DNA of 64,000 bases, taken from Synechococcus sp. CBW1108 (lineage in GTDB: Bacteria; Cyanobacteriota; Cyanobacteriia; PCC-6307; Cyanobiaceae). Below are positions 15,498 through 19,148 of the stretch, one piece after another. Location: the NCBI RefSeq assembly GCF_015840335.1, contig NZ_CP060395.1, positions 372,001 through 436,000 of the forward strand. The letters run 5' to 3'. A program made the position numbers and the translations under genes. Position 1 is the first letter of the stretch. Each line of letters opens with the position of its first letter. Under the pieces are notes generated by a model. It saw only the letters and a list, made by a program, of their open reading frames with translations. It was not told the DNA's origin and did not search any database.

Positions 15498-16189
15498 TCA
15501 ACTGGTGGCGCTCACGGAGCGTGCGATCAGCAAGGTGAGCATCAGAATTGCCAGCAACACCTGCAATGACATCACCAACTTGGCCGTCCGTGACATCACA
15601 GCTTCGGACGTAGGGCCATAGGTGGAGTTGACATTCAATGAGATAAACAGGTAATCGATGATGTGAGGCCGGGTGGAGCCTGCCCCTCCCGGCTCGGCCA
15701 AACGAAGGCCCCGCCGGAGGTGCTCACATCGAGGAAGATATACACAAACATAAACACCAGCACACTTTCCATATACACGGCCGCCACATCCCAAAGCCCG
15801 CCCAGGCCACCTCCCTGGTGTTGGTCTGCACTCGCCACCATCGATAACACGTTGGTTATCACCTGAACCATGGAAAACAGCAGGTAAACCAGGGCCCAGC
15901 GAAACAATTCGCGCTTGTGGCCGCGAAACAGGCTGATCGCCAGCCCCAGGGTAATGGCGACGAAGGCAATTGTGCCTGCTAAATCAACTGTGTGCACCAG
16001 ATTATCCAGATCCGGGCTGATCAGTTTTCGGTTCTTGAGGTGGCCCACCAGCAACAAATCCACGATCCAAACGCCCGTGGTGGCGGTGATAACCGTCAGC
16101 CGGCCCCCACCGCGGGTGAGCCGATCGCGCTGCAGATCCGCTGCCCCCCCCGGCTGCTTGCTGGGGCTCCAGGGAGCCCATTGGGTCAC
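15498..16189 (-). pseudogene. K-channel-like pore-domain membrane protein, split by one frameshift
   Basis: Two overlapping frames on the minus strand (16189 down to about 15670, then about 15700 down to 15498) make one protein if a single base is restored in the GC-rich stretch at about 15665-15695. The first part has three membrane segments (GVWIVDLLLVG, TIAFVAITLGLAISLF, FRWALVYLLFSMVQVI) and a fourth, ESVLVFMFVYIFLD. The second part looks like a two-helix pore: DYLFISLNVNSTYG, then MSRTAKLVMSLQVLL and a final helix ending LLIARSVS. The segment NSTYGPTSEA sits where a potassium channel has its TVGYGD filter. Either a sequencing error or a true pseudogene; no slippery heptamer for programmed shifting was recognised. 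Stop to start distance from the upstream gene (16221) is about 30 bp, consistent with one operon. Confidence 0.65.
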
Positions 16190-16220
16190 CCTTGGTCATC
16201 GAGCCCAGCCAAAAGGAAGT

Positions 16221-16685
16221 TTAGAAAAACTGGTCGAAGTTGTCGAAGTCCACGGCACTGAAGGTGCCATCCTCCACCTGGCCCATCAGCCGCTCCAGCT
16301 GCACCCAAAGGGCTCCAGCGGTAGCGATCGAGAGCACAAACGACACCAGCAAGGCCACGCCGGCGGAGAAGCCGAACACCTGCAGGCTGCCACCAATGAA
16401 CAGGGTGATGCCAATTACCACCCCGAAGTAGGGGAGGGTGATGGCGTAGCTGCCCAGGGGCAGCAGGGCCAGCCGATCCTGTTTCCAGCCTTCAAGCTTG
16501 TTTTCCACCAATTTGGCGAAGGTGAGGCCGCAGAGAACACCAATTGCCAAGCCCACTCCTGCCACTAGGTAGGGGGGCTGCATCACCACGGCGTATTCCA
16601 GCAGGTATTCGGCCGCATCCAGGTCGCCGTAGTCGCCCTGAGCCAGATCCAGGGCGGCCTCGCTGAGGTTGATCGGCGCGGGCAT
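16221..16685 (-). CDS. Small integral membrane protein of unknown function in the channel cluster
   Basis: A 154-residue protein with three predicted membrane helices: about residues 38-58 (YLVAGVGLAIGVLCGLTFA), 77-97 (ITLPYFGVVIGITLFIGG) and 102-122 (GFSAGVALLVSFVLSIATAG). The N terminus is acidic and the C-terminal tail is acidic and aromatic (AVDFDNFDQFF). I recognise no family. ATG 16685 (MPAPINLS) is preferred to GTG 16700. The gene follows the binding-protein gene by about 60 bp and precedes the pore-like gene by about 30 bp on the same strand, so the three probably share a transcript. The setting suggests an accessory membrane subunit, but that is inference. Confidence 0.65.
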   Translation of the reverse strand: MPAPINLSEAALDLAQGDYGDLDAAEYLLEYAVVMQPPYLVAGVGLAIGVLCGLTFAKLVENKLEGWKQDRLALLPLGSYAITLPYFGVVIGITLFIGGSLQVFGFSAGVALLVSFVLSIATAGALWVQLERLMGQVEDGTFSAVDFDNFDQFF

Positions 16686-16744
16686 CAACGCAGCGAACAC
16701 GGCGGCAGGAAAACAGCTGGGGAGACCCTAGCGGCGCTGCCCGC

Positions 16745-17908
16745 TCAGGGTCCCCAGCGCTGGGACCCCAGGAAGGTGAGCTCCACCAGATCGCTGGCCT
16801 GGTTGTCGCCAGGCTTGAGCCGCAGCCTGAAGCCGCCCAGGTCGAGGTTCGGAAGGTTCCTGAAGGCCGCCGCCACCCTTGCGCGGCTGGGGTTGGGGCC
16901 CGCCTTCTCCAGGGCGGCGGTGAGCCAGCGGGCCGCCAGGAACCCCTCCAGGCTCGAGTAGCCATAGCTGGCCTCCTTCTGCTGCCGCTGCATCAACCGC
17001 TGGTATTGGGCCACCACCGGCACCCTCCGGTTCCAGGGGAAGGGAACCACCTGGGAGATGCCGATGCCATTGGCCTGGCCACCGGGGAGGGCATCCTGCA
17101 GACCCTCGATGCCGACCGGCGAGAGGTTCATCAGCTGGGCCCTGCTGCCGAGTCGGGAAAGGTCGCGGCTCAGGGAGGCGGAGCTGGTGAAGGTGGCGAT
17201 CACCAGCACGGCATTGGCATTGGCAGCGACAACCTGCCGGGCGGCGGCGGCGGTGTTAGTGGAGTTGCGCTTTACGCCGGCAATGGCCACGGGCCGCAGG
17301 TTGTGGCGCGCAAGGGCGGCCTGGCTGGAACGCAGCCCATCTTCCCCATAGGCATCCTGGATATGCACCACCGCCACCTGGTGGCGGCCATCCCGCACCA
17401 GGTGGTCGATCACCTGATCGATCTCCGCCTGGTAGCTGGCCCGCATGTTGAACACCATGGGGCGAAAGGGTTTCAGCAAGGCCCTCGCCCCGGTTCGCGG
17501 AGCCACAAAGGGAATCCCCACCTTCTCCACCAGGGGAAGGATCGCCTTGGAGTTCGCCGTGCCGAAAATGCCGATCAGGGCGATGGCCTGCTGCTGCTCA
17601 ACCAGCCGGCGCGTATTGCCCAGGGTGAGCTGGGGGTCGTAGCCGTCATCCAGGCTCACCAGGCGCAACCGCCGGCCATGGATGCCGCCGCGCCGGTTCA
17701 CCTCGGCAAACCAGGCGAGCAGGCCTTGCTGGTAATCCTTGGCCGTCTGGGCAGAGGGGCCACTGAAGGGGGCCGACTGGCCGATCACCAGCTCCCTGGG
17801 GCCACTGGGAGGCACTCGCGCTGCCGGGGCCGAGCGCACCAGCAGGGGTACGAGCAGGGGTAGCAGCAGCAGGGCAAGTCTGCGTCTTGCGCGTAGGGTC
17901 GACGCCAT
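16745..17908 (-). CDS. Type I periplasmic binding protein (branched-chain amino acid / LivJ-like)
   Basis: The 387-residue precursor has a Sec signal (residues 1-28, RRRLALLLLPLLVPLLVRSAPA). The mature two-lobe fold opens with ELVIGQSAPFSGPSAQTAKDYQQG and continues with NRRGGIHGRRLRLVSLDDGYDP, ALIGIFGTANSKAILPLV, FVAPRTGARALLKPF and VAVVHIQDAYGEDGL. This is the amino-acid/amide-binding family used by Liv-type ABC transporters and by receptor sensors. No ABC transporter gene is nearby; the neighbours are membrane proteins and, divergently, a ligand-gated channel homologue. A strong AGGAGG (17912-17917 on the other strand) precedes ATG 17908; frames upstream of this ATG are antisense to the channel gene. 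Confidence 0.88.
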   Translation of the reverse strand: MASTLRARRRLALLLLPLLVPLLVRSAPAARVPPSGPRELVIGQSAPFSGPSAQTAKDYQQGLLAWFAEVNRRGGIHGRRLRLVSLDDGYDPQLTLGNTRRLVEQQQAIALIGIFGTANSKAILPLVEKVGIPFVAPRTGARALLKPFRPMVFNMRASYQAEIDQVIDHLVRDGRHQVAVVHIQDAYGEDGLRSSQAALARHNLRPVAIAGVKRNSTNTAAAARQVVAANANAVLVIATFTSSASLSRDLSRLGSRAQLMNLSPVGIEGLQDALPGGQANGIGISQVVPFPWNRRVPVVAQYQRLMQRQQKEASYGYSSLEGFLAARWLTAALEKAGPNPSRARVAAAFRNLPNLDLGGFRLRLKPGDNQASDLVELTFLGSQRWGP

Positions 17909-17924
17909 CTGCCTCCTGAAACCG

Positions 17925-19148
17925 GTGCGGAAGCAGCGGCGCTGGAATCTGCTCGCCACTCTGGCGCTTCTACTGGCGGTGATTCTGGCCTTTGTGGCGA
18001 TCACCCGCATCGACATCACCCCGGTGCAGACCCGTGATGCCCTGCGGCTTTCCACCTCAGCGCGATCCCTAACTATCGACCCTCGCCAGCTGCCCCCCAG
18101 CGGCTGGACCACCCTGCGCGGTGAGCTGCTCAATGCCGGCGAAGCCAGGGTGGATCAGGACGCGCTGGAGGCGGCGCCCTTGCACGCCCAACTCGGGGTG
18201 TACGCCAACACCACTTCCGAGCTCGACCTGAGCGTGCCGAGCTATGCCGCCAGCGGCTACATCTGGATGGTCTGGGATGGGGCCCTGCAGGCCTATCTCG
18301 AGGAGGCCGGCATCACGATCGACGAGCGCATCACCCTGCTCAACACCCTGATCACCGATGCCCCGCCGGAACTCGATCCGGTCGGAGATGGGTACGAACG
18401 GCTAGACGATGGGGGCTACTACCAACTATTCACCTATCGGGGCCGCTATCTGCTCGATCAGGCCAGCTTTCGCCACTACCCCTTCATGAGCGTCAGCCTG
18501 CCGCTGCTGATTGAGGCGAATGATCTCGATGGCAGCCTCAGCTACGAGCAGTTTCGGCTCGAACCCGACATCCGCAACAGCGGCATGGGCTTCAACGCCC
18601 GCATCCTTGGCTGGCTCAACCAGGGCTGGTCAATCGCCGAATACCGTCACCAGTACGCCACCAATTTCGGCCAGGGTGGCAGCGAAAGCGATTACAGCCT
18701 GGTGCTGTTTGAGATCTCCTTCGGCACCTCAGCCTGGGCCTCGGTGTGGCGCCTGCTGCTGCCGCTGGTGGTGCTGATGGCGATGGTGCTGCTGGTGTTC
18801 AAGGTGCGCCCCGATGAGCAAGATGCCCGCGCCAGCATTCCGGTGACCGTGCTGCTCACCCTGGTGTTCCTGCAGCAGACCTACCGCAGTGATCTGCCCG
18901 TTCTGCCCTTTCTCACCTTCCTGGACCAGGTGTATGTAGTGGCCTATGTGGTCACCCTGGTGGCCTTCGTGCTGGTGATCTGGATCGGCCGCCGCTACGC
19001 CGACATGGAGGTGATGGAGGATCCCGAGAAGAAAGCACTGGTGAGGGACCGGCTAGAGCAACTCGATAACAGCTGGCCCGTAGTGGTGGTGATCTTCAGC
19101 AGCCTGGCGATCGCCATGGCCTGGTTCACGATTCCGCCCGGAACCTGA
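17925..19148 (+). CDS. Pentameric ligand-gated ion channel homologue (prokaryotic Cys-loop-type receptor)
   Basis: A 407-residue protein with a basic N-terminal signal-anchor (RKQRRWNLLATLALLLAVIL), an external beta-sandwich domain (about 35-265) and a membrane domain in the order of the GLIC/ELIC family. The hallmark Pro-loop is FRHYPFMSVSLPLLIEA; there is a GYIWMVWDGALQAY strand and no Cys pair, as in bacterial members. M1 is about 274-292 (LLLPLVVLMAMVLLVF), M2 about 303-322 (IPVTVLLTLVFLQQTY), then the M2-M3 link SDLPVLPFLTFLDQ, M3 (VVAYVVTLVAFVLVIW) and M4 near the end (VVVVIFSSLAIAMAWF). The GTG 17925 start leaves 16 bp to the divergent binding-protein start; the earlier open frame would cover that gene. 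The ligand is unknown; the paired binding protein is suggestive. Confidence 0.82.
   Translation: MRKQRRWNLLATLALLLAVILAFVAITRIDITPVQTRDALRLSTSARSLTIDPRQLPPSGWTTLRGELLNAGEARVDQDALEAAPLHAQLGVYANTTSELDLSVPSYAASGYIWMVWDGALQAYLEEAGITIDERITLLNTLITDAPPELDPVGDGYERLDDGGYYQLFTYRGRYLLDQASFRHYPFMSVSLPLLIEANDLDGSLSYEQFRLEPDIRNSGMGFNARILGWLNQGWSIAEYRHQYATNFGQGGSESDYSLVLFEISFGTSAWASVWRLLLPLVVLMAMVLLVFKVRPDEQDARASIPVTVLLTLVFLQQTYRSDLPVLPFLTFLDQVYVVAYVVTLVAFVLVIWIGRRYADMEVMEDPEKKALVRDRLEQLDNSWPVVVVIFSSLAIAMAWFTIPPGT

Follow-up and report, generated by a model that had tools for sequence, protein, structure and literature searches.

A divergent pair of genes in Synechococcus sp. CBW1108, at positions 16745-19148 of the 64,000-nucleotide stretch analysed here (the window; G000:C1:372001-436000 within a 3.23-Mb single-contig genome), is predicted to encode a two-part receptor, consisting of a homologue of the pentameric ligand-gated ion channels (pLGICs) and a type I periplasmic binding protein (PBP). 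In the proposed mechanism, the binding protein would be exported to the periplasm and capture a small solute there. The channel, presumably a homopentamer in the inner membrane, would expose its beta-sandwich domain on the same side; the liganded binding protein would dock on this domain and alter the open probability, either opening or closing the pore, so that a putative cation pore would translate the level of the solute into a change of membrane potential or an influx of ions. Such docking and control of gating are regarded as reasonably probable. The two-part receptor is favoured because of the homology of both parts, the fold of the channel, the acidic residue at position -2' of its pore helix, the co-inheritance of the two genes, the lack of adjoining permease genes, and the pairing of related binding proteins with receptors or channel-like proteins. 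The cellular roles of bacterial relatives of neurotransmitter receptors are, to our knowledge, largely open; here the sensing partner would be separate, soluble and of a known kind of fold, which makes it possible to screen candidate ligands on the binding protein before they are tried on the channel.

The channel gene (17925-19148, forward strand, GTG start) encodes 407 residues and was identified by its open reading frame (ORF), by homology and by a structure model. ELIC was matched by the single sequence with phmmer (E=1.2e-6, residues 79-360) and by a profile built from the window protein together with 29 relatives (E=1.6e-12); the same 30-sequence profile matched GLIC variants from 8.8e-7 and the wild-type GLIC entry 3eam at 1.6e-5. 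The matches to NCBIfam TIGR00860 (8.8e-08) and NF033918 (6.8e-06) and to Pfam Neur_chan_memb (2e-4) all lay under the cutoffs. In an AlphaFold2 model made with 30 sequences, an N-terminal helix (residues 3-27) is followed by a domain rich in beta structure and by four long helices. With this model, Foldseek found 1103 chains of the Protein Data Bank (PDB) at E<=0.001, the best at 1.5e-16 with probability 1.00. GLIC chimeras, GLIC and sTeLIC held the top ranks; among the 50 matches listed, ELIC was also present and the TM-score by target was at most 0.67. GLIC, sTeLIC and ELIC were all matched at probability 1.00. As in Pro-loop receptors, homology spans the extracellular domain (ECD) and the transmembrane (TM) domain, the beta-sandwich ECD is followed by four TM helices, and the Pro-loop proline is present (P186, unchanged in all 30 aligned sequences). 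The product is called a pLGIC homologue, as judged from the ELIC and GLIC sequence matches and the fold matches of the model. The pentameric-channel plan described in the initial annotation, with a Pro-loop, M1-M4 and an LPVLPF link, is recovered in the sequence and the model, in which the link and the four C-terminal helices are present, and homology search keeps the protein inside the pLGIC family.

Several features distinguish this channel. An N-terminal hydrophobic helix (residues 3-27; 17931-18005, forward strand) appears in the model, where confidence is low (block means 48-68), and in the alignment: residues 2-27 are gapless among the 27 closest sequences, whose mean pairwise identity over this stretch is 56%, similar to M4 (52%), and W7 and N8 are invariant in all 30 channel sequences. 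The signal-peptide region of the binding proteins fails to align, with 35% of columns shared, a value that partly depends on the start codons chosen. The helix of the channel is probably a retained signal anchor, that is, an extra helix 'M0' with a cytoplasmic N-terminus. The pore helix M2 (residues 296-323; 18810-18893, forward strand), located by model and alignment, carries an acid at -2', T6' and L9'. Position -2' is D or E in all 39 cyanobacterial sequences covering it, 6' is T or A, and 9' is L. The acidic ring of GLIC, which we take to lie in this -2' column, resembles the acid found here; the channel is predicted to be cation-selective on account of this resemblance, although the ELIC residue in the column is S.

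The Pro-loop, FRHYPFMSVSLP (residues 182-193; 18468-18503, forward strand), was placed by alignment. Its proline is kept, as expected of the tip of the beta6-beta7 loop, the position conserved most strongly across the superfamily (PMC4795631), and the usual acid after PF is missing. Residue 188, which follows Pro-Phe, is M, T, L or I throughout the 30 aligned sequences. In a broader, overlapping set, 10 channels at 35-45% identity carry T or N there, and the 14 most distant channels carry D, E, Q or G. Basic residues at pre-M1 positions 264-271 occur in none of the 27 closest channels and in 2 of 30 overall, and the window channel thus lacks the pairing of a Pro-loop acid with a pre-M1 base. 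This pair is said to appear universal (PMC549065); since distant cyanobacterial channels vary here too, it is treated as a common feature and not as a defining one, and its absence from these channels calls into question a coupling pair that had looked universal.

The partner gene (16745-17908, reverse strand, ATG start) encodes a type I periplasmic binding protein of 387 residues, recognised with Pfam and as the channel's partner with trees. It belongs to Peripla_BP_6 (PF13458; 179.4 bits against a cutoff of 31.7, E 2.1e-52), and its N-terminus, examined by eye, reads as a signal peptide. The nearest solved structures are 3lop (4e-70) and 4kv7 (1.2e-69) by profile, plus 4m88; the model of the protein has a mean pLDDT of 69.4. 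Judged at the level of the family, an amino acid or amide is a guess for the ligand. The start codons of the two genes are separated by 16 bp (17909-17924), as the initial annotation had described. This spacer is too small for two promoters, which would therefore lie inside or past the adjacent coding sequence. The lack of an ABC (ATP-binding cassette) transporter also holds beside the pair: a Pfam scan of the window neighbours recognised no ABC transporter gene adjoining it, and the genes flanking the pair encode a sigma-70 factor at one end and, at the opposite end, an ABC1 atypical kinase, itself no transporter. The permease and ATPase of a LIV/urea ABC system are missing from the locus, the nearest permease match lying about 59 kb away (G000:C1:329386-330183). 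Four Peripla_BP_6 matches were found in this genome; three of them (1279235, 514148-516460) adjoin permease genes, and the window copy alone does not.

The two genes form a conserved unit. Relatives comprised Synechococcus and Cyanobium strains and cyanobacterial metagenome-assembled genomes, one of which is titled Bifidobacterium and is presumably mislabelled; loci fetched from them bear L numbers and genomes G numbers. Among the 151 genomes of the family survey, 41 contain some channel match and 25 some binding-protein match. Close channel matches (E<1e-200) number 20, in 19 genomes, and a binding-protein gene is adjacent in 19 of the 20 cases, G047 being the exception. Seven of the 19 pairs (L032, L040, L042, L044, L045, L048, L049) occur in other contexts, with no sigma-factor, ABC1-kinase or small three-helix membrane-protein gene in the stretch fetched, and a diverged pair in L056, with 37% and 42% identity to the window channel and binding protein, is arranged tail-to-tail. 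Adjacency of channel and binding protein is far beyond chance; for the other two genes next to the pair it is ordinary. Both members are under purifying selection, with dN/dS against L002 of 0.147 for the channel and 0.295 for the binding protein (0.11 for the ABC1 kinase and 0.084 for the three-helix gene). A wider search of 292 cyanobacterial genomes found the channel at E<=1e-10 in 22, of which 11 lie outside the family; in stretches from 9 of these 11 (L080-L088), an ORF profile search at E<=1e-5 found no PBP of this type adjoining the channel.

The histories of the two proteins agree closely. Over 34 pairs, the patristic distances give a Mantel r of 0.912, and 0 of 5000 permutations were as high (maximum 0.575). 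At a support of at least 0.9 there are 22 and 16 splits in the two trees, with 15 in common and no conflicts. For 20 pairs beside the ABC1 kinase, r is 0.924 within the pair, 0.576 between channel and kinase, and 0.420 between binding protein and kinase; given the kinase, the partial r of the pair is 0.92. The tree comparison left out L011, L015, L026, L027, L030 and L031 (cut or broken channel or binding protein), L023 and L028 (no binding protein), duplicates, and L029, in which a distant channel had been wrongly paired and the close channel is truncated by the contig end; L051 was added by hand. In the kinase comparison, the contig of L017 stops short of the kinase, so the kinase of L004, the same strain by title, was used in its place, and two pairs from one genome have a kinase distance of zero. 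L003 and L005 contain two pairs each, in which a given type of channel is always accompanied by the same type of binding protein. These two pairs flank the ABC1 kinase (L003:2645-9218 and L005:889-7416), and the window pair is of the far type at the near site; the two genes therefore appear to be moved or replaced together. Eroded or broken copies were also seen, namely a split channel frame in L027:8001-9184 and both pair genes in pieces in L030:1234-3186 and L031:1992-2745.

Further information comes from the kin of the binding protein. In the family genomes, 26 matches were found at E<=1e-40, of which 21 adjoin a channel of this family and five a Bestrophin-like gene. In each of these five loci the binding-protein gene immediately precedes the membrane-protein gene in tandem (L072:5079-7090, L073:3527-5469, L074:4503-6552, L075:4354-6402 and L089:3020-4161). 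The Bestrophin-like assignment (Pfam PF14023) has E values of 5.5e-16 to 2.7e-26 in the four loci scanned; the membrane protein of L075, outside the Pfam scan, starts much like that of L074. A PBP_like_2 gene comes next after the Bestrophin-like gene in L073 and L089, both of the loci where that gene was scanned. Outside the family, four matches at E<=1e-40 adjoin a methyl-accepting chemotaxis protein (MCP; L076), a PilJ/HAMP protein (L077) and sCache/HAMP/PAS/SpoIIE proteins (L078 and L079). In the tree, the receptor-linked binding proteins stand apart from the three transporter-linked proteins of the Synechococcus genome, with 41 of the 42 falling into one clade with support 1.0; the protein beside the MCP joins them only through a weak node (0.14). 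These receptor and channel partners are the strongest hint of a sensor clade. The window protein is probably a sensor subunit, because its kin adjoin membrane receptors or channel-like proteins and because it has no permease genes beside it. The joint working of binding protein and channel supposed in the initial annotation thus has good comparative-genomic backing, from adjacency across contexts, from trees that match beyond a neighbouring gene, and from kin beside other receptors.

UrtA-like proteins of Peripla_BP_5 adjoin distant channels at two loci, on the same strand with a 4-bp overlap in L026:5037-7471 (reverse strand, E 2.9e-126) and with a tail-to-tail overlap in L068:5063-7523 (E 6.4e-147). 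The L068 protein is 84% identical to the UrtA of the Synechococcus genome, and so may be the urea-transport protein itself.

Some observations weigh against the two-part receptor. The channel model is of middling confidence (mean pLDDT 70.9, pTM 0.62). With neither a Pro-loop acid nor a pre-M1 base in its sequence, the channel would not be expected to inherit the gating of ELIC and GLIC in any simple way. G047 (L023, L043) and L028 have an intact-looking channel with no adjacent binding protein, so the channel may work alone. Agreement between trees also arises from shared history without physical contact. Moreover, the UrtA-like proteins of L026 and L068 cluster with the transporter-linked UrtA, and the separation of receptor-linked from transporter-linked proteins is therefore not strict.

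Other explanations of the pair were weighed against these data; the likelihoods assigned to them and to the two-part receptor overlap and do not sum to one. The binding protein could serve a LIV/urea-type ABC permease encoded elsewhere, while the channel is gated independently by a ligand or by protons and shares only regulation with it. Its clear membership in Peripla_BP_6, the two permease gene sets of the right family and third single match in the genome, and the channels that stand alone in L023 and L028 agree with such an arrangement. We consider it unlikely, however, as each of the genome's other three Peripla_BP_6 matches adjoins permease genes, the pair trees agree far better than either does with the neighbouring gene, and kin of the protein lie beside MCP, PilJ/HAMP, SpoIIE and Bestrophin-like membrane proteins. 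A buffer or carrier role, which Tasneem et al. (PMC549065) proposed for PBP and Cache partners, is possible but doubtful: the binding protein would raise the local concentration of a ligand that binds the channel's own site, and no docking would be involved. Adjacency and co-inheritance are explained in this way too, and small amines are reported to open ELIC directly (PMC3119659), but the pairing of kin with unrelated receptor folds (MCP, SpoIIE, Bestrophin-like) is easier to understand through protein docking. An input to chemotaxis or phototaxis, which PMC549065 suggested for such bacterial channels, appears quite improbable. Three MCP signalling domains are encoded in the genome and one relative of the binding protein lies beside an MCP (L076); against this, those MCP domains are located elsewhere, and neither motility nor chemotaxis genes were recognised in the scanned window neighbours or in the relatives' neighbours that were read, not all of which were scanned.

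A larger assembly had been put forward in the initial annotation, in which a three-helix protein and a K-channel-like pore protein, placed in one operon with the binding protein, would modulate the channel or supply a second conductance, completing a four-gene sensor. All four genes lie side by side here and in L002, L003, L017 and L019, and the three-helix gene adjoins the channel in 12 of the 19 genomes that carry a close channel match, G047 among them. This contiguity, however, follows a general synteny that runs from the sigma factor to an OrnDC-like gene. Of the 151 family genomes, 102 have the three-helix gene and 41 any channel match, and in 7 of the 19 close-channel genomes the three-helix gene lies apart from the channel. 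Matches to the K-channel-like gene at E<1e-30 occur in 8 of the 151 genomes; the gene adjoins the channel in three of them (G000, G126, G143), all of the window's genus, and also in L003 and L017; its window copy is frameshifted and has no potassium filter. A four-gene sensor is hence highly improbable, and a four-gene complex was rejected, the three-helix gene being widespread and mostly unlinked and the K-channel-like gene rarely beside the channel. Of the neighbourhood, then, the channel and binding protein are conserved together and the other two genes are not; these two proteins are bystanders of the two-part receptor.

Within the supposed operon, the binding-protein gene and the gene of the small membrane protein stand. 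The latter (16221-16685, reverse strand) encodes a conserved protein of about 154-159 residues, starting with the ATG at 16685 or the GTG at 16700, and is a neighbour outside the unit. TctB scored 21.3 bits on this protein, below the cutoff of 29.1, and that identity was rejected. The K-channel-like part of the proposal fails, since its gene (15498-16189, reverse strand) is not one open frame: 15638-16189 and 15501-15794 are overlapping partial reading frames in different frames. Relatives (L002, L003, L017 and L019) keep one intact frame of 227 residues, which places a frameshift near 15670 in the window copy; it may be a real break or an assembly error. Pfam DUF1345 was matched below threshold in all four of these relatives (best 4.3e-4), and the segment equivalent to a filter reads NVNSTYGPTSE in all four, with no filter of the TVGYG type. 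An identity as a K channel was rejected for this broken frame, for which only the weak resemblance to DUF1345 is left, and the gene is better described as DUF1345-like, a neighbour in a few close relatives. Against L002, its dN/dS is 0.32 in the N-terminal part and 0.15 in the C-terminal part, with 0.10 in two comparisons of intact copies; these values fit relaxed constraint, by what is a weak test. Profiles of the three-helix and the DUF1345-like protein found no PDB match at E<=1.

The window channel shares its fold and its order of ECD and M1-M4 with ELIC, GLIC and sTeLIC, and the Pro-loop proline, T6' and L9' of M2 and an LP-x-LP link with ELIC. It differs from all three in the extra conserved N-terminal helix, the missing acid after PF and the stand-alone binding-protein partner, and the 27 closest channels are without a basic pre-M1 residue. 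The binding protein is of the same family as the LivJ-type Peripla_BP_6 proteins of ABC transporters; unlike them, it has no adjoining permease or ATPase, and its kin are partnered with receptors or channel-like proteins. In binding-protein-dependent chemoreceptors and in LuxP-LuxQ, a soluble periplasmic binding protein likewise docks on a membrane receptor, but that receptor is kinase-linked and not a channel. Should the channel be gated by the binding protein, the pair would be a natural two-part version of the one-chain scheme thought to apply to NMDA/AMPA receptors and to PBP-fused bacterial channels. A broader proposal is put forward tentatively: one clade of stand-alone type I binding proteins may act as an interchangeable sensing subunit for unrelated cyanobacterial membrane receptors. 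In picocyanobacteria it would have been coupled twice to ion channels, to pentameric channels that keep an N-terminal membrane helix and have a changed coupling loop, and to Bestrophin-like proteins. The pentameric channel would be gated by the whole binding protein and not by a small ligand in its own site, making it a binding-protein-gated ion channel.

Accessory domains and partners of such channels have been described. In DeCLIC (PMC12664993), a periplasmic accessory domain also modulates a bacterial channel of this fold, but it is in the same chain, jelly-roll-like, calcium-binding and not a PBP. The available part of Tasneem et al. (PMC549065) describes alpha-proteobacterial fusions with PBP-I, neighbouring stand-alone PBP-II and Cache proteins, and a simple architecture for the cyanobacterial channels. 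In those fusions, and in the channels with PBP-II neighbours, a small-molecule-binding PBP is likewise tied to the channel, and a sensing role was proposed; here the PBP-I gene is separate, divergent and picocyanobacterial, and the window and the paired relatives have two separate divergent genes in place of one polypeptide. That part of the paper does not contain the stand-alone divergent PBP-I pair, its picocyanobacterial extent, the kin paired with Bestrophin-like proteins or receptors, or the altered coupling loop; among the matches listed by a literature search thin on subscription journals there was none on any of these points, and no paper covered by it linked ligand-gated ion channels to picocyanobacteria, or to histidine decarboxylase in cyanobacteria.

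Distant channels were encountered in other settings. At 35-42% identity, a channel ends a same-strand cluster of a PLP (pyridoxal phosphate) decarboxylase, a membrane sensor-like protein and an MFS (major facilitator superfamily) transporter (L008:9891-15506, L029:890-6571, L031:3426-9044, L053:1816-about 7250 and L052:2048-7098); at the contig end in L054, only the MFS gene and the channel fit. In L008, L029, L031, L052 and L053 the channels show 38-42% identity. The NCBIfam histidine decarboxylase model scored above its cutoff in all three cluster enzymes scanned, and the nearest PDB chain of the L008 enzyme is a serine decarboxylase. MFS_1 was found in both transporters scanned, with none recognised in L052, and the membrane sensor-like protein of L053 has a weak dCache match. 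Primary amines open ELIC (PMC3119659); together with the gene content, this suggests that the cluster makes, exports and senses an amine, an idea that can be tested. No histidine decarboxylase above the cutoff was found in the Synechococcus genome itself. The most distant channels (28-31%; L059-L061, L063, L067) lie near dnaJ-like, hemB-like or mutS2-like genes, named by reading the sequences, in a partly conserved order; no PBP was recognised beside them among neighbours that were not all scanned. In L055:5204-7298, a channel of 39% identity is divergent from a Tll0287-like protein (E 1.6e-40).

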